From Verrucomicrobiota bacterium (lineage in GTDB: Bacteria; Verrucomicrobiota; Verrucomicrobiia; Opitutales; Opitutaceae): a stretch of DNA of 64,000 bases. The stretch lies in the NCBI GenBank assembly GCA_026398135.1, contig JAPLTN010000107.1, positions 1 to 64,000 of the forward strand, read 5' to 3'. The stretch's first letter is position 1. The number at the start of each line of letters is the position of its first letter. Of the stretch, positions 21,496-41,422 are shown piece after piece. The notes beneath the pieces are model-generated. The model was given only the letters and a program-made list of their open reading frames with translations, had not been told where the DNA came from and ran no database searches. The position numbers and the translations under genes are program-made.

Positions 21496-22614
21496 ATGCT
21501 GCGCTCTCCTCAAACCGGGACGACGGTCACCGACGCGTCTACCCAATTAGAAAAACCTCCCTGTCTCACTGATGCGGCACTGCACGGTGAACTTAGATTT
21601 ATAGACTTATTTTGTGGAATAGGTGGATTCAGATTCGCCATCGAATCAGCTGCCAATGCCGGCGGACTGAAAACGCGCTGCGTGTTTTCAAGCGACATAG
21701 ATAAAAGCTGCCAAAAGGCTTATGGAGTAAATTTCGGAGAGGCACCGGTCGGTGACATCACCAAGATATCGGCCCCCGAAATCCCCGATCATGATTTACT
21801 ATTGGCGGGGTTTCCGTGTCAGCCGTTTAGCATCCTTGGGATGAGAAAGGGATTCGAAGATACCCGTGGCACGCTCTTCTTCGACATCGCACGCATACTG
21901 GAAGCCAAAAAACCGAAAGCATTTGTTCTGGAGAACGTGAAACTACTGGCCGGGCATGACTCGGGCAGAACTTTGTCGCGCATCTTGGAAACCCTTCGAG
22001 AACTCGGCTACAAGGTGGATTATAAAATCCTTAACGCCCTGGATTTTGGGCTGCCGCAAAAGCGTGAGCGTATTTGGATAGTGGGGCACAGGTGTATAGA
22101 CGGTAAAATCCACTGGCCGACAGGTGCGGTAAAACGAAAGCCCCTTTCGTCTGTTTTGGAAAAGGATGTGCCGAGGAAATTTTTTGCGTCGGATCACATC
22201 CGGAATCGCCGCCACGCAGTGATGCAGCCCGGACCGCAGCCGATGATTTGGCATGAGAACAAAGCGGGGCACATCAGCGCGTATCCTTATTCATGCGCCC
22301 TGCGTGCGGGTGCGTCTTACAACTATTTATTGGTGGATGGAATTCGGCGGCTGACACCCAGAGAAATGCTAAGGTTACAGGGGTTTCCAGAGTCGTTTAT
22401 GGTGGTCTGCTCGGATTCGGAAACGCGCAAACAGGCTGGGAATAGTCTTCCGGTCAACGTGGCTTCGGCCGTTATCGCAGGGCTGCTTTCCGGGCTTGGT
22501 TGGGGAAGAAATCAAACTGCGTATCCGGTAAATGAAAACAGTTCCGCGCTTCAGCTCTCGTTGATGGAGAAAACAAAGAAATACGATGCAAAGCCCAAGA
22601 CTAAGAAGCGTTGA
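21496..22614 (+). CDS. DNA (cytosine-5) methyltransferase, type II
   Basis: A protein of 372 residues with the ordered C5-methyltransferase motifs. Motif I FIDLFCGIGGFRFAIE (35-50), motif IV GFPCQPFS with catalytic Cys108, motif VI ENVKLL (146-151), motif VIII QKRERIWIVG (188-197) and motif X QAGNSLPVNVASAVI near the end. The target-recognition region between VIII and IX (residues ~200-290) gives the specificity, which I cannot read. GC is markedly lower than in neighbours. The stop overlaps the next gene by 29 bp, the usual layout of a modification-restriction pair. The start could be a few codons further in. Confidence 0.93.
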   Translation: MLRSPQTGTTVTDASTQLEKPPCLTDAALHGELRFIDLFCGIGGFRFAIESAANAGGLKTRCVFSSDIDKSCQKAYGVNFGEAPVGDITKISAPEIPDHDLLLAGFPCQPFSILGMRKGFEDTRGTLFFDIARILEAKKPKAFVLENVKLLAGHDSGRTLSRILETLRELGYKVDYKILNALDFGLPQKRERIWIVGHRCIDGKIHWPTGAVKRKPLSSVLEKDVPRKFFASDHIRNRRHAVMQPGPQPMIWHENKAGHISAYPYSCALRAGASYNYLLVDGIRRLTPREMLRLQGFPESFMVVCSDSETRKQAGNSLPVNVASAVIAGLLSGLGWGRNQTAYPVNENSSALQLSLMEKTKKYDAKPKTKKR

Positions 22615-23317
22615 TAAATACTCCGCACCCTACCCATTGGGCGTTTTCCCTTCCGATTTCCCGGTGCGGCTCGGTCGCGAAATAGTTTATTTGCTGGCAA
22701 CACGCAAAACTCCCCGGTTGGAGGGCAATGATTGGGAGGAGATTTTTGCTGCGGTGGTGGGTGCGGATTGGAAGCCCTCAAACGTGGGACTTGATGATGT
22801 GGTGCTTGAGCAAACCGCGTGGGGTGCCAAGACGGTGAAAAATCGCCGCCCTTCGTCGGTCCAACGTGTGCGCTTAATATCCGGTCGGAACTCTCCCGTG
22901 TATTCTTATGGCGATAGTGAAATTACGCATTGTGAACCAAATGAACTGGGGCGGAAAATCTTAGAAATCTGGAACGAACGAGTTACTTCGATAAGAAAGC
23001 TCTACCGTCATGTGAGAACCGTGGTTTTGGTGAAATCGGATGACCTCCAGGAATTGGCGATTTTTGAGACGGAAACGATTTTGTATCCCGTAAACAACTT
23101 CGTGTGGCAGTGGAATGATAACGAAAATCTCGAAGGTCTGGATTTAGGGACTCACGCGCACAAGTTCACCTGGCAGCCGCACGGATCCCAGTTCACGCTC
23201 ATTGAAGACGTTCCGCCTACACGATTGGCGATACGCATCAAAGCACCGCCAAAGCTTTCTAAGGACGATGTGATTGATACGGTGAATTTTGACCCGTCTT
23301 GGGTGCAGATATTGTGA
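22586..23317 (+). CDS. Probable cognate type II restriction endonuclease
   Basis: A 243-residue protein that overlaps the methyltransferase gene by 29 bp and shares its low GC. I do not recognise a named family. A possible PD-(D/E)xK-like core is NVGLDDVVLEQTAWGAKTVK (Asp at the first acidic pair, Lys in WGAKT), preceded by a helix DWEEIFAAVVGADW with a Glu, as in many such enzymes. The function is inferred mainly from the gene pairing. It could instead be a specificity or control protein, but it is long for a C protein. Confidence 0.6.
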   Translation: MQSPRLRSVDKYSAPYPLGVFPSDFPVRLGREIVYLLATRKTPRLEGNDWEEIFAAVVGADWKPSNVGLDDVVLEQTAWGAKTVKNRRPSSVQRVRLISGRNSPVYSYGDSEITHCEPNELGRKILEIWNERVTSIRKLYRHVRTVVLVKSDDLQELAIFETETILYPVNNFVWQWNDNENLEGLDLGTHAHKFTWQPHGSQFTLIEDVPPTRLAIRIKAPPKLSKDDVIDTVNFDPSWVQIL

Positions 23318-26343: not shown

Positions 26344-26424
26344 GGTGGCGATTGGCGGCGGCGTGAGTGAAGATCGCGGGAGTTTTTCTTGTCAGAGTTT
26401 TCATCCGCTTCATATCCGGTTCCG

Positions 26425-28131
26425 ATGAAGTATATTTTTGTTACGGGTGGTGTCGTTTCCTCGTTGGGCAAAGGTCTGACGGCGGCTGCGCTGGGCGCGT
26501 TGCTGGAAATGCGCGGGCTGACCGTGCGCATCCAGAAGTTCGACCCGTATCTCAACGTCGATCCGGGCACGATGAGCCCTTACCAACACGGCGAGGTGTA
26601 TGTGCTCGAAGATGGTGCGGAGACGGACCTCGACCTCGGCCATTACGAGCGTTTCACCAGCGGCAAACTGTCGCGGCTGAACAACCTCACTTCCGGTCAA
26701 GTTTACGAGAGCGTGATTCAGAAGGAACGTCGCGGCGCTTACCTGGGCAAAACCGTGCAGGTGATCCCGCACGTGACCAACGAGATCAAGGAGCGCATCA
26801 CCATGGCGGCGAAGGACGTCGATATCCTCATCACCGAGATCGGCGGCACGACGGGTGACATCGAGGGATTGCCCTTTCTGGAGGCGTTGCGTCAATTCGC
26901 CCTCGAGCAGGGACCGCGCGACGTGATTTTCCTGCATGTTACCTTGGTGCCGTATCTGGCGGCGGCGGGCGAATTAAAGACCAAGCCCACCCAGCAATCG
27001 GTGGCGAAGCTGCGCGAGATCGGCATCCAGCCGCACATTTTGGTTTGCCGTAGCGAGCAGCCGATCGACGCCAGCGTGCGCGACAAGTTGTCCATGTTCT
27101 GCAACGTGCCGGTGAAGGCCGTCGTTCAGTGCCAGGACGTATCGTCCATTTACGAGCTGCCCATCGCTTTGCAAGAGGAGGGGCTCGATCAGCTGGTGGT
27201 GGATATGTTCGGGCTCAACAAGCCCCAGCCCGAGCGCAATGTCTGGGCCGAGCTTTCCCGCCGTATCCGCAATCCCCTGCACAAGGTGAAGATCGGCGTG
27301 GTCGGCAAATACATCGAGCTACAGGACGCCTACAAATCGGTTTACGAATCCATCACCCACGCCGGCATCGCCAACAACGCGGTGGTCGAGGTGGTGCGGG
27401 TGGACGCCGAGGATCTGGAAAAACGCGGCGGCATTTCCCTGCTCAAGGGCCTCGACGGCATTCTCGTCCCCGGTGGCTTCGGCGACCGCGGCACCGAGGG
27501 AAAAATCATCGCCGCCCGCTATGCCCGCGAGAACGGCGTGCCCTACTACGGGCTTTGCCTCGGCTTGCAGATCGCGGTGATCGAGTTCGCCCGCAACGTG
27601 CTCAAGCTGAAGGGGGCCAACTCCACCGAGTTCGACCCCGCCTCGCCCCATCCGATCATCAACATCATGGAGGAGCAGAAAAAAGTGATCGATAAAGGCG
27701 CGACCATGCGGCTCGGCAGCTACGAATGCGCCCTCACCCCCGGCTCCAAAGCAGCCAAGGCTTACAAGGCCGAGAGCATCCGCGAACGCCACCGCCACCG
27801 CTACGAGGTGAACAACGCCTACGTCGGCCAGCTCCAGCGCGGCGGACTCGTGGTTTCGGGCATCAATCCCCGGCGCAACTTGGTCGAAATCGTCGAGCTC
27901 AAGGATCACCCGTTCTATCTCGCGGTGCAGTTCCACCCCGAGTTCCAGTCCAAGCCGCTCCAGGCGCATCCGCTGTTCGCAGCTTTTATCGCCGCCGCGC
28001 TTAAACAGCGTAAACCCGCTTCAGCCAAATTGAAGAGCGCCCCCAAGTCTGCCGCAAAAAAACCGTCCGCCGCCAAGGCCAAGAAGCCCGCGAAAAAGCC
28101 TGATTATAATGCGAGTTCACGTTCGGCTTAA
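26425..28131 (+). CDS. pyrG: CTP synthase
   Basis: A protein of 568 residues from ATG 26425. The synthase domain starts [18 protein letters not shown], contains [21 protein letters not shown] and [11 protein letters not shown]. The C-terminal class I glutamine amidotransferase domain has [22 protein letters not shown] (Cys nucleophile) and [10 protein letters not shown] (His-x-Glu). It makes CTP from UTP, ATP and glutamine. Odd: after the normal end ([10 protein letters not shown]) there is a tail of about 40 residues rich in Lys, Ala, Pro and Ser, making it longer than usual for bacteria. Confidence 0.97.
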
Positions 28132-28340: not shown

Positions 28341-29138
28341 ATGCCACTCTTCGACCCGAAAAAACTTCTCGTTCTCGCCGGCCCCTGTTCGTTGGAAAAC
28401 GAGACCGTGGTGCGTGCCGTCGCCGAAAAGCTCGTCGCCCTGCGCGCCAAATACCCCGAGCTGAACCTCGTTTTCAAAGGCTCCTTCGACAAAGCCAACC
28501 GCACCTCCATAGTCGGCGGGCGCGGCACCGGACTCGAAGCCGGGCTCGCTTTGCACGCCTTGGTTAAAAAAGACTACGGACTGCCCTGCGTGACCGACGT
28601 GCATGAGAGCGACCAATGTGCGCCCGTGGCCGCCGTGTGCGATGTGCTCCAGATTCCGGCCTACCTCTGCCGCCAGACCGATCTCCTGCTCGCCGCCGCC
28701 GCCACCGGAAAAACCGTGAACGTGAAAAAGGGCCAGTTCCTCGCCCCCACCGACATGGTGCATGTGGTCGGCAAACTCAAACACGGCGGCGCGGCCGAGA
28801 TCTGGCAGTGCGAGCGCGGTACCACCTTCGGCTACGGCAACCTGGTGGTGGACATGCGCGGCTTCCCCATCATGGCCCGCAACGGTTACCCGACCATCCT
28901 CGACGCCACCCACAGCGTGCAGCTGCCCGGCGCGGCCGGCGGCAAAAGCGGCGGCCAACGCGAATTCGTGCCGCCGCTGTGTTTCGCCGCGCTGGCGGCG
29001 GGCGCGGATGGGCTCTTCCTCGAAACCCATCCCGATCCGGCCAACGCGCTCTCCGACGGACCCAACATGGTGCCACTCGAAGAACTCGAAGCCCTGCTCG
29101 TAAAGTGCCTCGCCTTCTGGCGTTGCGCGCGCAGTTGA
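28341..29138 (+). CDS. kdsA: 3-deoxy-8-phosphooctulonate synthase (KDO-8-P synthase)
   Basis: A protein of 265 residues. Class I DAHP-synthase fold blocks: [80 protein letters not shown] and [17 protein letters not shown]. It condenses arabinose-5-phosphate with phosphoenolpyruvate to give KDO-8-P for lipopolysaccharide inner core. An asparagine in NVKKGQF and the absence of a Cys near VLAGPCS must be read against metal-type classes before calling it metal-dependent. It lies 44 bp before the KAS III fusion gene, same strand. Confidence 0.96.
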
Positions 29139-29182: not shown

Positions 29183-30787
29183 ATGGCCACCTTCCTCATC
29201 GACATTCCCGTGCCCAGCATGGGAGCGACCGTAAACGAGCTGACCGTGATCGACCTCAAAGTGAAGGTCGGCGATCCGGTTAAAAAAGGCGGCATCGCGG
29301 CCGAGCTGGAGAGCGACAAATCCGTCTTCGAGTGGGAAGCGCCTTGCGACGGCACGGTGCGCGGCGTGCATTGCCGCGCCGGAGATATCATCCGCTCGGG
29401 CGACCGCTTCATCAGCATCGAGACCGACGACGAATCGTTGCGGCACCTGATCGCGCCCGTCGACACCGCCAGCGGTGAAAACCCCAAACTCCAAGGGGCA
29501 AATTCCCAAGCCCCAGCCCCAGCCCCAGAGGCTGTATCTGCTTCGGTCACGCCTCCGGTCGCGGCCCCGCAGGCGTCCGTTCAGCCGGCCGTTTTCGCGG
29601 CCAACTGGACGCCCCGCGCCCGCAAGCTCGCAGTCGAGGCCGGGCTCGATCCGGCGACGCTCACCGGCCTTAGCGGCACCGGCCCGGGCGGAGCGATTTC
29701 GGGCGACGACGTCGCCGCCTACTTGGCGGCGACGCGCCAAGCCGCGACGGTTACAGCCCCGGCGTCAGCACCGATCCCGGCTGCCGTTTCACCCGCCGCC
29801 GACGATACCGTGTGCATCGCGGGCGTGGGCTACGCGGTGCCGAAAAACATCCGCCCGACCAGCGAAATTCTCAAAGCTTTCCCCGGTCGCACCGAGGCCG
29901 AGATGCACAAGCTCACCGGTATTCACGAACGCCGCTACGCCGACGCCGACGAATCCGCCACCTCGCTCGCCGCCACCGCCGCCCAGCACGCGCTGGCCCA
30001 GGCCGGGCTCACCGCCGCCCAGATCGACGGCATCGTGCTCGCCACGATCATCCCCGACCAACCGGTGCCCTCGATGGCGAGCGCGCTGGCCCAGTTGCTC
30101 GGTTGCCCGAAGGCGCTGGCCTTCGACGTCAACGCCGCTTGCTCCGGCTGGCTCTACGCGTTGGAAGTGGGCCGCGCCTTCATTCGCGGCGGCACGGCGA
30201 GAAACATCCTCGTGGTCACGGCGGAGCTGCTCTCGCGCATCACCAACCCCAACGATCACGAGACGGCGTTTCTCTTCGGCGATGGAGCCGGCGCGGCCGT
30301 GTTGACCGCTGCTTCCGGCGGACACCGCTTGCACCGCATGGCGCTTTCCGGCGATGCCGATCTTTTTAAGGCGATCCAGCGTCCGGGTGGCGGTGCGCGC
30401 CGGCCCGTGCCCTGCGCGGATGGTAGCGACCGCGACGATTTTTACCTTCAGATGGATGGCGGCGCGGTGTTTAAGAATGCCGTTATCGCCTTCGCCAATC
30501 AGATCGAGCAGGCCATCTCCCGGCATGGACTCAAGCCGGAGGACATCGCGTGGATCGTGCCGCACCAGGCCAACGAACGCATTCTGCGCGCGGTCGGCAA
30601 ACGCGTGGGCATTCCCTTTGAGCGCTTTGTGGTGACCATCGCCAAGTACGGCAACACCTCGGGCGCGTCGGTTTCGATGGCGCTGGGCTGGGCGGCTGCG
30701 GAGGGTATTTTCAAGCCGCGCGACCGCATCATTTTCTGCTCGGTGGGCGCAGGCCTGACTTACGCCGGCGGTTTGCTGGTCTGGTAA
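29183..30787 (+). CDS. Fusion: lipoyl domain + E3/E1-binding domain + KAS III (FabH-like)
   Basis: A 534-residue protein with three domains. Residues 1-82 are a lipoyl domain with the lipoylated-type lysine in LESDKSVFEWEAP (Lys46). A Pro/Ala linker follows (100-140). Residues 142-183 form a peripheral-subunit-binding domain (TPRARKLAVEAGLDPATL...GTGPGGAISGDDV), the part that in E2 proteins binds E1 or E3. After a second linker (184-206), residues 208-534 are a KAS III domain with catalytic Cys320 (DVNAACSGWL), His461 (VPHQANERI) and Asn491 (KYGNTSGAS). The usual E2 acyltransferase domain is missing; KAS III takes its place. I infer that acyl groups made on the lipoyl arm by an E1 could be condensed directly with malonyl-ACP. 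No E1 or E3 gene is seen in this window. Confidence 0.9.
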   Translation: MATFLIDIPVPSMGATVNELTVIDLKVKVGDPVKKGGIAAELESDKSVFEWEAPCDGTVRGVHCRAGDIIRSGDRFISIETDDESLRHLIAPVDTASGENPKLQGANSQAPAPAPEAVSASVTPPVAAPQASVQPAVFAANWTPRARKLAVEAGLDPATLTGLSGTGPGGAISGDDVAAYLAATRQAATVTAPASAPIPAAVSPAADDTVCIAGVGYAVPKNIRPTSEILKAFPGRTEAEMHKLTGIHERRYADADESATSLAATAAQHALAQAGLTAAQIDGIVLATIIPDQPVPSMASALAQLLGCPKALAFDVNAACSGWLYALEVGRAFIRGGTARNILVVTAELLSRITNPNDHETAFLFGDGAGAAVLTAASGGHRLHRMALSGDADLFKAIQRPGGGARRPVPCADGSDRDDFYLQMDGGAVFKNAVIAFANQIEQAISRHGLKPEDIAWIVPHQANERILRAVGKRVGIPFERFVVTIAKYGNTSGASVSMALGWAAAEGIFKPRDRIIFCSVGAGLTYAGGLLVW

Positions 30788-35306: not shown

Positions 35307-36707
35307 GTGAACCGCCCCTCGCTCAAAATTGTTCTGATCTCGCCGAAGGGGCCGCTTTACCGGCATCGCGGCGGGATTTGGAAAAAGTCCCTGCGTTACC
35401 AGCCGCTCACGTTGACCACACTGGCGGCGCTGATTCCGGCGGATTTACCGCACACGGTGGAGCTGATCGACGAGGGCATCGCCGATGTGCCGATGGATTT
35501 GGAGGCTGACTTGGTCGGGCTGACGGTAATCACAGGCACGGCGAAGCGGGCTTATATGCTGGCGGATCATTTTCGGTCGCGCGGCATCACGGTGGTGCTG
35601 GGCGGGCCGCATGTGACGCTTATTCCGGACGACGCGCAGCCGCATGCGGATGCGGTGGCATGCGGTTACTCGGAGGATACTTGGCCGCAGTTGTTGCAAG
35701 ACTTCGCGGCGGGCGAATTGAAGACGCGCTACACGCAGGCGCCGGGGCTGGAGATAGGCGGGCGGCCGTTTCCAAAGCGCGAGCTGCTGCCGAGTCGAAA
35801 TTACCTCACGAACAACGTGTTCGAGGCGACTCGCGGGTGCGTGCATGCGTGCGACTTTTGCGTGGTGCCGACGGCGTGGGGGCGGAAGCCGTTTCAGAAG
35901 CCGGTGGCGGAGGTGCTGGCCGACATCCGGCAGCACGGGGCGCGGAAGCTGATTTTCATCGATCTAAACCTGATCGCACATCGCGGCTACGCGAAGGAGC
36001 TGTTTACGGCGCTGATCCCGCTGCGGCTGCAATGGTATGGGTTGGCGACGGTGCTGCTGGCAGACGATCCGGAGCTGCTGGAGTTGGCCGGCCGCAGTGG
36101 GTGCAAGGGCTTGCTGATGGGGATGGAGTCGATCTCGCCGGCCAATCTGAAGGCGAATCACAAGGGCTTTAATTCGCCCGAGCACTATGCGCGCGTGGTT
36201 GCGCGACTGCACGCGCACGGCATCGCGTTACAGGGGTGTTTCGTGTTCGGGCTGGATGAGGACCGACCGGATGTGTTTTTGAAGACGGCGGAGTTCGCGG
36301 TGCAGGCGAAGATCGACCTGCCGCGCTTCGCGGTGGTAACGCCGTTTCCGAACACGCCGCTTTACCTGAGGTTGGAGGCGGAGGGGCGAATTTTGACCAA
36401 GGATTGGGAACTCTACGACGCGCAGCACGTGGTGTTTCAGCCGAAGCACATGAGCGTGCGCGAGCTTCAGGAAGGCATCGAAACGGCCTGGAAACACGCC
36501 TACTCGTGGGACTCAATCTGGCGGCGCTTGCGGCACTCGCCCGCGCCGTGGCCGGTGCGCATCGGGACAAATCTTGGCTATCGGTTTTACGCGAATAACC
36601 TGAGCCGGTTCTATAACTGCGACTGGATCATCGGGAGAGTGCCGCGCAACGCGCCGTTTGTGCAGCCGGTATCGGCGGCGGGGGAAGTTCGGGAGGATGT
36701 GGCGTAA
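35307..36707 (+). CDS. B12-binding-domain radical SAM protein 1
   Basis: A 466-residue protein. Residues ~8-140 look like a cobalamin-binding Rossmann domain (KIVLISPKG..., [38 protein letters not shown]). Residues ~165-400 are a radical SAM barrel with [13 protein letters not shown] (CxxxCxxC cluster motif), then [16 protein letters not shown] and [18 protein letters not shown] helical C-terminal extension follows. Such class B enzymes methylate or rearrange unreactive carbons (hopanoid and fosfomycin methylases, GDGT ring synthases are known relatives). Substrate unknown. First gene of a tightly coupled six-gene operon; the last base of its stop is shared with the next ATG. Confidence 0.88.
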
Positions 36708-38065
36708 TGCGTGTCACCTTAATTCATCCCTGCATCGGTCGCCATGCAGGGGACCGGAGCTACATTCGGACCTGGCAAATGGAGCCCTTGCCGGCCGCGA
36801 CCTTGGCGGGGCTGACGCCGAAGGACGTGGATCTGCGGTTTTACGATGATCGCATGGAGGTGATTCCATTCGATGAGGCGACGGATCTGGTCGCGATCAG
36901 CGTGGAGACGTACACGGCGAAGCGCGCCTATCAGATCGCGAGCGAGTATCGGCGGCGCGGTGTGCCGGTGGTGATGGGTGGGTTTCACGCCAGCCTGTGT
37001 CCGGACGAGGTGGCGCTTTACGCCGAGGCGGTGGTGGTGGGCGAGGCGGAGGCGCTCTGGCCGCTGGTCTTGGACGACGCGCGGTATGGGACGCTGAAGA
37101 AGTTTTATCGCGCGGAAGGACGCACGGCGCTCGGGGGACTGCGTCCGGATCGGTCGATCTTTCGCGGGAAGCGTTACCTGAAAGTTGGCTTGGTGGAGGC
37201 GGGGCGGGGGTGCCACTTCAAGTGCGAGTTTTGCGCGGTGCAGACGGTGTTTAGCTCCACCCAGACGCGGCGGCCGGCGGACGATATTTTGGCGGAGCTG
37301 CGACTGATTAAGAATGAGCGGAAGCTGATCTTTTTCGTGGACGATAACATCACGTCGAATCTGGCGCAGGCGAAGGAGTTTTTTCGTGCGTTGATCCCGC
37401 TGAAAATCCGTTGGGTGAGCCAGTCGAGTATCAATGCGGCGCACGACGACGAGTTTCTCGACCTGCTGGTGCGCAGCGGATGCATGGGCGTGCTGATCGG
37501 CTTCGAGAGCCTGAACCCGGCGAACCTCGCGGCGATGAACAAGACCTTTAACACGGCGCGCGGCGGTTTCGAGACGGCGCTGGCGAACCTGCGGCGGCAC
37601 CGTATCCGCGTTTATGGCACGTTTGTGTTCGGCTACGACGGCGACACGCCGGAGAGTTTTGGGCTGACGGTGGAGTTCGCGCAGCGGCACGGTTTCTACA
37701 TTGCGGCGTTTAATCACCTGACGCCGTTCCCCGGCACGCCGCTCTATACGCGGCTGAAGGCGGAGGGGCGGCTGCTATATGAGGCGTGGTGGCTGGACGA
37801 GCGCTACGGGTATAACCGGATTCCGTTTCAACCGAAGGGCATGTCGCCGGAGGCGCTGCGGGAATCGTGTCTGGCGGCGCGGCGGGCGTTTTATTCGTGG
37901 CCGAGTATTTTGAAACGCGGGTTCGATCCTGTGAACCGGGCGGACGGCTTTATGTGGCGGAATTTTTATCTGATCAACGCGCTGCATCGGAACGACGTGG
38001 CGCTGCGTGATCATTATCCATTGGGGGACGAAGCATGGCAGGGGCCGCTGTTGCCGGCGAATTGA
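36707..38065 (+). CDS. B12-binding-domain radical SAM protein 2
   Basis: A 452-residue protein, about as long as its upstream neighbour and similar in plan: cobalamin-type domain (LVAISVETYTAKRAYQIASEYRRRG, VVMGGFHASLCPDE), then EAGRGCHFKCEFC (cluster Cys), FFVDDNITSNLAQAKEFFRAL, GFESLNPANLAAMNKTF, FVFGYDGDTPESF. Together with gene 1 it probably makes two sequential or one heteromeric modification of the same scaffold. TAATG overlap at the start, and the next gene starts 31 bp inside its 3' end. Confidence 0.88.
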   Translation: MRVTLIHPCIGRHAGDRSYIRTWQMEPLPAATLAGLTPKDVDLRFYDDRMEVIPFDEATDLVAISVETYTAKRAYQIASEYRRRGVPVVMGGFHASLCPDEVALYAEAVVVGEAEALWPLVLDDARYGTLKKFYRAEGRTALGGLRPDRSIFRGKRYLKVGLVEAGRGCHFKCEFCAVQTVFSSTQTRRPADDILAELRLIKNERKLIFFVDDNITSNLAQAKEFFRALIPLKIRWVSQSSINAAHDDEFLDLLVRSGCMGVLIGFESLNPANLAAMNKTFNTARGGFETALANLRRHRIRVYGTFVFGYDGDTPESFGLTVEFAQRHGFYIAAFNHLTPFPGTPLYTRLKAEGRLLYEAWWLDERYGYNRIPFQPKGMSPEALRESCLAARRAFYSWPSILKRGFDPVNRADGFMWRNFYLINALHRNDVALRDHYPLGDEAWQGPLLPAN

Positions 38066-39189: not shown

Positions 39190-39911
39190 GCGCGGTGATC
39201 TCAATGGCGACGCGGGAGACGAGGCGGGATGATCTTTCGGTGACGGAGCGGGCTGAGATGCGCGGACTGCTGGACACCTATTTCGAGGGCGTGACGGAGG
39301 CGCAGTTTGCGCGTGATTTGGACGAGAAGGACTGGGTGCTGCGGGTTTTCGCGGAGGGGCGGCTGGTGGGGTTTTCGACGCTGGCGATTGAGGTGGTGAT
39401 ACTGAGCGACGGGCGGGAGGTGAACGTGGTGTATTCAGGCGATACGATCATGGCACCGGAGGCGTGGGGATCGCCGGTGTTGGCGCGCGGTTGGATACGG
39501 CTGGTGCGGCGGGCGTGCGCTGAGCGGGGCGAGCGACCGGGGTATTGGCTGCTCTTGTCGTCGGGGTTTCGGACCTATCGGTTTTTGCCGGTGTTCTGGC
39601 GGGATTTCTGGCCAAGGGCGGGTGCGGCGATTTCGGAGGCGGGGCGGGCGCTGCGGGATGAGTTGGCGGGGCGGCGCTTTGGTGCGGCGTATGATGCGGC
39701 GGCGGGCGTGGTGCGTTTCGCGGTGCCGCAGCGGCTGCGGGAGCGGTTGGCGGAGGTGCCGACGGGGCGGGATCGGGATGCGCAGGTGGCGTTTTTTCTG
39801 ACAGCGAATCCGGGGTATAGCGCGGGCGACGAGTTGGTGTGTTTGACGGAGTTGAGCGACGATAACCTGACGGCGGCGGGGCGGCGGGTGGTGAGGGAGG
39901 CGGGCGCATGA
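39186..39911 (+). CDS. GNAT-like protein, unknown substrate
   Basis: A protein of 241 residues from ATG 39186 (ATGA overlap with the previous stop). Predicted alternating strands and helices fit a GNAT-like fold: FARDLDEKDWVLRVFAEGRLVGFSTLAIEVV, VNVVYSGDTIMAPEAWGS, ARGWIRLVRRACAERG, then YWLLLSSGFRTYRFLPVFW. The canonical R-x-x-G-x-G/A loop is not obvious, so acyl-CoA binding is uncertain. It may be the acceptor-side partner of the upstream protein or of the GH3 enzyme downstream. Low certainty on function; the gene is real by overlap and codon use. Confidence 0.6.
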   Translation: MSAVISMATRETRRDDLSVTERAEMRGLLDTYFEGVTEAQFARDLDEKDWVLRVFAEGRLVGFSTLAIEVVILSDGREVNVVYSGDTIMAPEAWGSPVLARGWIRLVRRACAERGERPGYWLLLSSGFRTYRFLPVFWRDFWPRAGAAISEAGRALRDELAGRRFGAAYDAAAGVVRFAVPQRLRERLAEVPTGRDRDAQVAFFLTANPGYSAGDELVCLTELSDDNLTAAGRRVVREAGA

Positions 39912-41422
39912 GCGCGGGGGCGTGGCTGGCGAATGTGGCTTGGGCGGCGGGAAATCGTGGCGCGGCGCGGCGGTTTACGGAGGCGTTGCGCGAGCCGGCG
40001 GCGGCGCAGGCGGCGTGGCTGCGGGCGCGGTTGGCGCGAGATGCGGAGTCGGCGTTTGGGCGCGAGCATAGGTTTGGCTCGATGGCCGGGTATGCAGAGT
40101 TTGCTCGGCGGGTGCCGCTGCGCGGCTGGGAGGAGTTTGCGCCGTGGGTGGAGCGGGTGCGGCGAGGCGATTCTGGGGTGCTCGGAGTGGAGCGCGTCAC
40201 TCATCTGGCGCCGACGAGCGGTTCGAGCGGGGCGCGGAAACTGATTCCGTTTACGGCGGGCTTGCAGACGGGGTTTGCGGAGGCGGTGGGAGCGTGGATG
40301 ACGGATTTGGTTCGGCAGCGGCCGGGACTTCTGGGCGGGCCGGCATATTGGTCGGTGTCGCCGGTGGCGGAGGGCGACGAGGAAGCATCGGGCGCGGTGC
40401 GGGTGGGCTATGCGGACGACGCGGAGTATCTGGGCGGGGTGCGGGCGTGGCTGGTGCGGCGGGCGTTGGCGGTGCCTTCGGAGGTGAGACACGAGCGGGC
40501 AATGGATGAGTTTTGGCGGAAGACACTGGTCGGCGTGCTGGGGCGGCGCGATTTGCGGCTGATCTCGGTGTGGCATCCGTCGTTTCTTGAATTGTTGCTG
40601 GAGACGGCGGAGCGACGGTGGGGCGAGGTTTGTGAGGGGATTTTGGATGCGCGGCGGGCGGCGGAGTTGCGCGCGCTGGGGCCGAGGGCGTGGGCGCGGT
40701 GGTGGCCGGACTTGCAGGTGGTGAGCTGTTGGGGCGAGCAGGCGGCGGAGCCGGGCTGGCGGGAGTTACAGAGGAAGTTTCCCGGCGTGCGGGTGCAGGC
40801 GAAGGGTTTGCTGGCAACGGAGGCGGCGGTGACGATTCCCTTGCGCGGGCAGTATCCGTTGGCGGTGACGTCGCATTTTTTCGAGTTCATCGACGAGACC
40901 GGAGGCGTGCGCTTGGCGCATGAACTGGAGCGCGGGCGGAGTTATGAAGTGGTGGTGACGAATGGCGGCGGCTTATGGCGTTACCGGCTCTGCGACGTGG
41001 TGGAGTGCACGGGGCGGATGGCGGCGACGCCGACGCTGCGGTTTCTCGGGCGGGCGGGGAACGTGAGCGATCTGCGTGGGGAGAAGCTGAGCGAGGCCTT
41101 CGTGGCGGAGGTGTTGCGCGGTCTGTGGCCGGACGGGTCTCGGCCGGAGTGGGCGGTGTTGCGGGCGTGCGAGGAGCGGCCGGGCTACGAGCTGGAAATC
41201 GCGGGGGTCGGCGGCGACGAGGCGATTTTGGCGGAGCGACTGGAAACGGCGCTGGCAGCGAATCCGCACTATGCGTGGGCGCGGAAGCTGGGGCAGCTTG
41301 AGTCGGTTCGTGTGGTGGCGATGCGGGTAGACGTGGCGCGGGAGAGGTTGCGCTCGCACGAGGGAAGAATCGGCGATGTGAAGCCGGTGCTGTTGGTGGG
41401 CCGAAAGCGAGTCGGGCGATGA
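39908..41422 (+). CDS. GH3-family acyl-adenylating (acid-amido synthetase) enzyme
   Basis: A 504-residue protein of the plant GH3 (auxin-responsive promoter) family, which also occurs in bacteria. ATP/AMP motif I LAPTSGSSGARKLIPF, motif II around VVSCWGEQAAEPGW, motif III TNGGGLWRYRLCDVVECTG, and a C-terminal mobile domain (GEKLSEAFVAEVLRG). GH3 proteins activate a carboxylic acid as acyl-AMP and transfer it to an amine. In this operon it should couple an acid scaffold to an amino compound. ATGA overlaps on both sides. Confidence 0.85.
   Translation: MSAGAWLANVAWAAGNRGAARRFTEALREPAAAQAAWLRARLARDAESAFGREHRFGSMAGYAEFARRVPLRGWEEFAPWVERVRRGDSGVLGVERVTHLAPTSGSSGARKLIPFTAGLQTGFAEAVGAWMTDLVRQRPGLLGGPAYWSVSPVAEGDEEASGAVRVGYADDAEYLGGVRAWLVRRALAVPSEVRHERAMDEFWRKTLVGVLGRRDLRLISVWHPSFLELLLETAERRWGEVCEGILDARRAAELRALGPRAWARWWPDLQVVSCWGEQAAEPGWRELQRKFPGVRVQAKGLLATEAAVTIPLRGQYPLAVTSHFFEFIDETGGVRLAHELERGRSYEVVVTNGGGLWRYRLCDVVECTGRMAATPTLRFLGRAGNVSDLRGEKLSEAFVAEVLRGLWPDGSRPEWAVLRACEERPGYELEIAGVGGDEAILAERLETALAANPHYAWARKLGQLESVRVVAMRVDVARERLRSHEGRIGDVKPVLLVGRKRVGR

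Follow-up and report, generated by a model that had tools for sequence, protein, structure and literature searches.

The third domain of the E2 proteins of 2-oxoacid dehydrogenase complexes is an acyltransferase, which hands the acyl group to CoA, and chain initiation by the ketosynthase KAS III is taught as a step that starts from acyl-CoA (or from the acyl group on acyl carrier protein, acyl-ACP). The protein described here is encoded in a 64,000-nucleotide stretch of an Opitutaceae genome (assembly GCA_026398135.1, contig JAPLTN010000107.1, positions 1 to 64,000; the window below is this whole stretch), and it carries a lipoyl domain, a peripheral-subunit-binding domain and a complete KAS III on one polypeptide. 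It is proposed, with a probability of roughly 0.7, to serve as the E2-like part of a 2-oxoacid dehydrogenase complex, with a chain-initiating KAS III in place of the CoA acyltransferase core; the acyl group would move from the lipoyl arm to KAS III and from there to malonyl-ACP.

Domain organisation and spread of the fusion protein

The protein and its parts are located in the window as follows.

29183..30787, + strand: lipoyl – subunit-binding – KAS III fusion protein, 534 amino acids (aa), ATG start (open reading frame, Pfam, NCBIfam, alignment)
29201..29410, + strand: lipoyl domain, residues 7-76 (Pfam PF00364)
29318..29320, + strand: Lys46, predicted lipoylation site within ESDKS, invariant in 26/26 (alignment)
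29411..29608, + strand: Ala/Pro-rich linker, residues 77-142 (predicted local distance difference test score, pLDDT, <50 at 94-139 of the model)
29609..29713, + strand: E1/E3 (peripheral subunit) binding domain, residues 143-177 (Pfam PF02817)
29714..29806, + strand: second linker, residues 178-208, approximate site of gene division in the split clade (pLDDT <50 at 188-208)
29807..30784, + strand: KAS III domain, residues 209-534 (Pfam, NCBIfam, PDB search)
29900..29902, + strand: Glu240, in place of FabH Trp32 of the CoA adenine clamp (alignment)
30140..30142, + strand: Cys320, active-site nucleophile (alignment)
30257..30259, + strand: His359, in place of FabH Arg151 of the CoA adenine clamp (alignment)
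30563..30565, + strand: His461, catalytic (alignment)
30653..30655, + strand: Asn491, catalytic (alignment)

The three domains had been recognized in the original prediction from the sequence alone, and profile searches bear out each of them. The lipoyl domain, with Lys46 in LESDKS, matches Pfam Biotin_lipoyl (2.1e-13, 50.3 bits, above the gathering cut-off), and the binding domain matches E3_binding (4.2e-8, 33.7 bits against a cut-off of 23.7). The KAS III matches ACP_syn_III at residues 314-388 (4.6e-26) and ACP_syn_III_C at 446-534 (5.2e-29), both above their gathering cut-offs, and passes the NCBIfam model NF006829 'beta-ketoacyl-ACP synthase 3' (310 bits, cut-off 249). The stricter fabH model TIGR00747 is narrowly missed (281.8 bits versus 292.1), and the acyltransferase catalytic domain PF00198 was not found in the protein by the Pfam scan. 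Lys46, Cys320, His461 and Asn491 are invariant in all 26 full-length sequences, the 25 relatives being 57-92% identical to the protein of the window, and the binding domain is well kept across this alignment. The structure model built from these 26 rows is mediocre (mean pLDDT 67, predicted template modelling score 0.41), and a PDB search with the fusion protein finds KAS III and adds little beyond the sequence. Judged by its sequence, the protein is neither an E2, as it has no acyltransferase, nor a standard FabH, as the clamp is lost and the fabH cut-off missed; it plausibly works like the front of an E2 joined to the catalytic end of a FabH.

A rare assembly error, which would have undone the prediction, is not borne out. 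The whole protein lies in one stop-free frame in 26 of the 57 genomes searched (its own included), which argues that the fusion is neither a chance product nor an assembly artefact; the remaining carriers have the protein in two pieces or at contig ends. The fusion occurs across many genera of the family. In a second scan, limited to one genome per species and partly overlapping the 57-genome set, the best 80 loci came mostly from records titled Opitutaceae, Opitutales, Opitutae, Opitutia or Verrucomicrobia; 48 were fused, 28 had the halves as neighbouring open frames and 4 were cut or partial. The two halves, measured in the 28 pairs, lie within -4 to +45 bases of each other in 20, and the spacing of the other 8 ranges from -407 to +276, probably reflecting alternative starts, overlapping frames or sequence faults.

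A quick KAS III tree, for which no root was inferred, holds 22 of 59 fused, 16 of 35 split and 16 one-chain sequences (the last described below) with 24 FabH. In it, 15 of the 16 split rows fall together in a supported clade that lies within the fused ones; the exception, L159, starts at a contig end. This topology fits an origin of the split genes by fission of a fused ancestor. One genome (G459) holds two full-length lipoyl-KAS III copies (C34:20494-22080 and C66:12446-13978). The Opitutaceae-type gene is also present in metagenome-assembled genomes titled Akkermansia muciniphila or Candidatus Sumerlaeota (L105, L111, L166, L123), whose titles are probably wrong or whose bins are mixed.

Candidate partners and a one-chain counterpart

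An acyltransferase (PF00198) search of the window's genome finds two places, the E2 of pyruvate dehydrogenase (PDH), which adjoins PDH E1-beta and E1-alpha, and the E2 of 2-oxoglutarate dehydrogenase (OGDH), which adjoins SucA and Lpd; the fusion is not among them, and no place lies on contig C38. The binding-domain search finds three places, two E2s and the fusion protein. The E1_dh search gives five matches, and the four listed are those of PDH, OGDH, a fused E1alpha-beta of 680 aa on C38, followed by kdsC, lptC and lptA, and a partial second copy of the latter (L086 5752-6894, G000 contig C39), which is 69% identical over the first half and cut by the contig end. Two acyltransferases thus stand beside three kinds of E1, and since both acyltransferase E2s have their own E1, one E1 is left without an E2 and one lipoyl protein without an E1. 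The C38 E1alpha-beta is likely to be the missing partner of the lipoyl-KAS III, as gene content indicates. E1 and E3 genes had been left to be sought elsewhere in the genome, and both now have candidates, this orphan E1alpha-beta and a dihydrolipoyl dehydrogenase Lpd on contig C95. The solved structures closest to this E1 include enzymes of the PDH type as well as of the branched-chain type. Genome G043 (96% complete), without an acyltransferase, was considered as a natural experiment and dropped, its sister G123 having a cut acyltransferase at a contig end.

Whole-genome surveys covered the phylum of the window, Verrucomicrobiota. Among 177 genomes of the order, searched with the lipoyl-KAS III profile and the C38 E1alpha-beta at E<=1e-100 each, the former matches 23 and the latter 28; both are found in 22, KAS III only in 1 (G143, 75% complete), E1 only in 6 and neither in 148. 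Fisher's test gives 1.3e-21, a value not corrected for kinship and, with the carriers in three families, one that overstates their independence.

In a second system all activities reside in a single chain. The G055 protein of 1128 aa contains E1_dh, Transket_pyr, Transketolase_C, lipoyl and KAS III domains (Pfam), and two further one-chain examples of ~1,100 aa were confirmed by Pfam. At E<=1e-120 the G055 chain hits 36 of the 387 phylum genomes; the match covers nearly its whole length in 34 and only part of it in G304 and G251. In an equal-size draw from the phylum the window-type lipoyl-KAS III matches 20 genomes, none of which is on the one-chain list. Of 20 aligned one-chain rows, 19 have the lipoyl lysine, the 20th (L252) being in the wrong frame, and Pfam found no acyltransferase domain in the one-chain KAS III proteins scanned. 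A plasmid search gave 1113 matching records, in none of which 80% of the one-chain protein is found together at a single locus.

In an E1 tree made by a quick method with a midpoint root (21 one-chain rows, one chain being represented twice), the one-chain E1 group adjoins 11 E1-lipoyl-acyltransferase chains and one Streptomyces E1, and the 17 E1s of the C38 type group by themselves with full support. Ten of the 11 chains have an acyltransferase located by the acyltransferase search, and Pfam shows it in L232 and L293; L302, grouped with them by size, falls outside them in the tree and has no acyltransferase place. KAS III therefore appears to have taken the place of the acyltransferase in the one-chain proteins, and the two systems appear to combine lipoyl-KAS III with different E1 lineages. 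Single-chain E1alpha-E1beta-lipoyl-acyltransferase dehydrogenases of ~1,000-1,130 aa occur in several families of the order (L232 2775-5927, L293 1772-4909, L295-L301). The two KAS III groups may have arisen independently or share one origin: a tree without an outgroup does not distinguish the two, and when two OleA-like sequences serve as the outgroup, the fused/split and the one-chain KAS III fall into a single clade (approximate likelihood-ratio support, SH-aLRT, 95), but long branches meet there.

On balance, the Verrucomicrobiota probably hold a new class of multienzyme machine: a 2-oxoacid dehydrogenase with a ketosynthase at its end, which would start fatty acids directly from keto acids, without acyl-CoA. 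It would have been assembled at least twice from different E1 lineages, once as a single chain and once, in Opitutaceae and two sister families, as E1alpha-beta with lipoyl-KAS III, sometimes split further into E1, lipoyl protein and KAS III.

The CoA site, the proposed route and its alternatives

In FabH (E. coli numbering, sequence from NC_000913), the CoA adenine is held between Trp32 and Arg151, and Arg36 makes a bond with the phosphopantetheine, according to an excerpt of PMC4606726. In the CoA-site alignment, identical sequences were counted once and matches shorter than ~270 residues were dropped, hence 16 one-chain sequences from 20 loci. Trp32 and Arg151 are present in 24 of 24 FabH (23 from relatives and that of E. 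coli) versus 0 of 110 lipoyl-linked KAS III (0/59 fused, 0/35 split or cut, 0/16 one-chain), some 'split' rows being merely cut by contig ends (e.g. L159, L166, L174, L178) and the unsorted row L061, which reads DEW there, being left out. Arg36 is likewise kept in 24/24 FabH and in none of the 59 fused and 35 split rows. Cys112, His244, Asn274 and Arg249 are kept in every row, and Arg249 together with a basic residue at 256 in 94/94 fused and split rows. Position 87, which we take to influence the size of the KAS III pocket, is Val in 57/59 fused and Thr in 16/16 one-chain proteins, versus Phe or Met in 21/24 FabH, and the smaller residues suggest a roomier pocket. The window's genome also encodes, at another place, an ordinary FabH that retains both clamp residues; its gene lies 3' of a plsX-like gene. 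PDB entries titled mtFabH mutants W42A/R161A and R46A/R161A were met in the structure search; W42, R46 and R161 are presumably the equivalents of Trp32, Arg36 and Arg151.

In the proposed route, the orphan E1alpha-beta, a thiamine pyrophosphate enzyme, would dock on the subunit-binding domain, decarboxylate a 2-oxoacid and reductively acylate the lipoyl group predicted on Lys46. The arm, on its flexible linkers, would bring the acyl thioester to KAS III, where Cys320 would take the acyl group directly; KAS III would then condense it with malonyl-ACP to yield 3-oxoacyl-ACP and CO2, and Lpd would reoxidise the arm. The net reaction would be 2-oxoacid + malonyl-ACP + NAD+ -> 3-oxoacyl-ACP + 2 CO2 + NADH, with no free acyl-CoA. 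This route, which the original prediction had sketched and which we still infer, has gained support from the co-occurring orphan E1alpha-beta, the one-chain form, the loss of the CoA clamp, and the two acyltransferases beside three kinds of E1. Its most likely use would be the starting of branched (iso/anteiso) fatty acids from the keto acids of valine, leucine and isoleucine, because the pocket at position 87 seems roomier and branched acids are reported for strains of the family: anteiso-C15:0, iso-C15:0 or iso-C14:0 are listed among the major acids of strains that we take to be Opitutaceae (excerpt of PMC12193912).

It is also possible, if somewhat unlikely, that the system provides a specialised starter (for a polyketide, a pigment or the acyl chain of lipid A) and not bulk membrane fatty acid, a role compatible with direct transfer from the lipoyl arm. 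The neighbouring genes, which are related to lipopolysaccharide (LPS), would fit such a role. The orphan E1alpha-beta precedes kdsC, and mostly also lptC and lptA, in 18 of 21 E1alpha-beta loci (of the exceptions, L086 and L100 stop at a contig edge and L102 does not), and kdsA precedes the fusion gene:

28341..29138, + strand: kdsA (KDO-8-P synthase), 44 bp 5' of the fusion gene, a neighbour conserved in part of the family
26389..28131, + strand: pyrG (CTP synthase), 5' of kdsA

An E1 also stands with a lipoyl-bearing megasynthase on a Streptomyces plasmid. Against a specialised role, no biosynthetic gene cluster was seen by eye among the genes listed around the fusion or the E1alpha-beta, and the system is present in many genera of the family. 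The shared neighbours may also mean little, given that no kdsC was found close to kdsA in any of the 20 kdsA loci read. An ancestral single operon is unsupported by the same reading, in which 3 of these loci have the system. Both the E1alpha-beta (L085 6674-9285 and 17 other loci) and the lipoyl-KAS III adjoin LPS genes. A promoter and terminator scan gave nothing clear. Elsewhere in the window, by eye, 21496-22614 resembles a gene for a DNA cytosine methyltransferase, and 22586-23317 may encode its restriction partner; two tandem proteins that resemble B12-binding radical SAM enzymes lie at 35307-38065, and acyltransferase-like genes and a GH3-like protein (39908-41422) come after them.

The domain might instead be a conventional KAS III that uses acyl-CoA, with the lipoyl and binding domains only tethering it to a dehydrogenase complex, whose acyl-CoA it would use on the spot, and the channelling going through CoA. 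Its score above the curated beta-ketoacyl-ACP synthase 3 cut-off and its intact catalytic triad agree with this, and so do two OleA-like paralogues without Trp32 and Arg36, one of which, in a poorly aligned region, is also without Arg151. OleA uses acyl-CoA, so that loss of Trp32 and Arg36 by itself is compatible with CoA use, and these paralogues make the CoA-site argument less strong than it appears at first. These OleA-like KAS III, from the window's genome and a relative (L055 1734-2765, - strand; L063 8550-9581, + strand), have fabI-/fabZ-like and alpha/beta hydrolase neighbours by eye; the scan names them only 3-oxoacyl-ACP synthase III, 'OleA-like' being our judgement. The complete absence of Trp32 and also of Arg151 from the 110 lipoyl-linked rows, none of which keeps one or the other, and the one-chain proteins, in which the scans show no acyltransferase domain to make acyl-CoA, nevertheless render a CoA-dependent enzyme unlikely.

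It is quite doubtful that the ordinary PDH E1 loads the arm and that straight chains are started from pyruvate, acetyl-lipoyl giving acetoacetyl-ACP with acetyl-CoA bypassed. A PDH E1 is present in the genome and binding domains can be promiscuous, but 22 of the 23 lipoyl-KAS III carriers have the orphan E1alpha-beta, the exception being the incomplete G143, and E1 domains as such are found in 55/57 relatives, unlike the orphan E1alpha-beta, which tracks the fusion. The presumed effect of Val or Thr for Phe at position 87 on the pocket also speaks against acetyl transfer. A degenerate fusion with a vestigial lipoyl part and only KAS III working is very improbable: KAS III can be produced by itself, as the split clade demonstrates, but the lysine motif is invariant, the binding domain is well kept and four genomes without this KAS III retain the lipoyl half with its lysine (domains confirmed in two).

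Besides the OleA-like paralogues, several observations weigh against a direct lipoyl-to-KAS III system as proposed. The E1alpha-beta lies on a different contig and does not adjoin the fusion; it is a separate gene in the window system, the E1 and the lipoyl-KAS III being on different polypeptides, and the E1 most closely related to the one-chain E1 is not of the window type. Arg36 is kept in 11 of 16 one-chain KAS III. The carriers cluster in three families (f1, f8, f24). Coraliomargarita also has iso-C14:0 and anteiso-C15:0 (excerpts of PMC10288369 and PMC3035286), and branched fatty acids were rejected as a marker of the system, as they occur in that genus too and gene presence is not tied to the measured strains.

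Four of the six E1-only genomes, from three genera and each at least 98% complete (G029, G114, G173, G183), have the E1alpha-beta and a lipoyl-binding-domain gene that keeps the ESDK lysine, with no orthologous KAS III at E<=1e-100, and 8 further genomes of these genera are also without a KAS III ortholog. The separate genes sit after pyrG-kdsA, and such stand-alone proteins are encoded at L226 4297-4770, L221 6825-7385, L222 1936-2553 and L223 6519-7100 (all - strand). The arm therefore needs another acceptor in these genomes, perhaps an ordinary FabH or, where a one-chain dehydrogenase is present (G183, G029), its acyltransferase. In the other two E1-only genomes (G129, 92% complete; G132, 88% complete) no lipoyl gene or KAS III was found. 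Outside the 177-genome draw, G013, of the same genus as the window's genome and 95% complete, has an E1alpha-beta 74% identical with neither KAS III nor lipoyl gene found, a pattern that needs a separate explanation or reflects an assembly gap, and G004 (85% complete) may resemble it. The genera without this KAS III and G013 are the strongest points against an obligatory link.

Comparison with known systems

A search of the open-access literature, in which a lower-ranked paper could be missed, found no lipoyl-KAS III enzyme described. If the proposed route is correct, a single complex would join keto-acid oxidation to lipid synthesis without an intervening acyl-CoA pool, and views on the regulation of branched-chain lipid supply would have to be revised. 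Small and modular, the parts might serve in E. coli to make branched fatty acids independently of a branched-chain CoA pool. The system also provides a genomic marker and an unusual enzyme set for a poorly understood phylum.

The Streptomyces xanthii plasmid NZ_CP061282.1 (L253 8929-10941, 10963-20196) encodes an E1alpha-beta adjoining a megasynthase whose first domain is a lipoyl domain, and keto-acid units would likewise be fed to carrier-protein chemistry. This pair looks like the keto-acid loading module of a polyketide synthase/nonribosomal peptide synthetase, and we liken it to NapB/NapD of naphthyridinomycin. Unlike the fusion, the megasynthase continues behind its lipoyl domain with an acyltransferase-like domain, and its ketosynthases are of type I, not KAS III.

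The single-chain E1alpha-E1beta-lipoyl-acyltransferase proteins (L232, L293) share the same E1 and lipoyl parts, and their E1 group adjoins that of the one-chain KAS III form, but they end in a CoA acyltransferase and not in KAS III. FabH (E. coli FabH, PDB code 1hn9; nearest by sequence 2ebd and 4ryb) belongs to the same family as the KAS III domain and has the same Cys-His-Asn triad and the ACP-side Arg249, whereas in the fusion Trp32, Arg151 and Arg36 are replaced and a lipoyl arm is attached. The E2 of the branched-chain and pyruvate dehydrogenases has a lipoyl domain with the DK motif, a linker and an E1/E3-binding domain in the same order as the fusion, but it ends in 2-oxoacid_dh (PF00198), where the fusion carries a KAS III instead.

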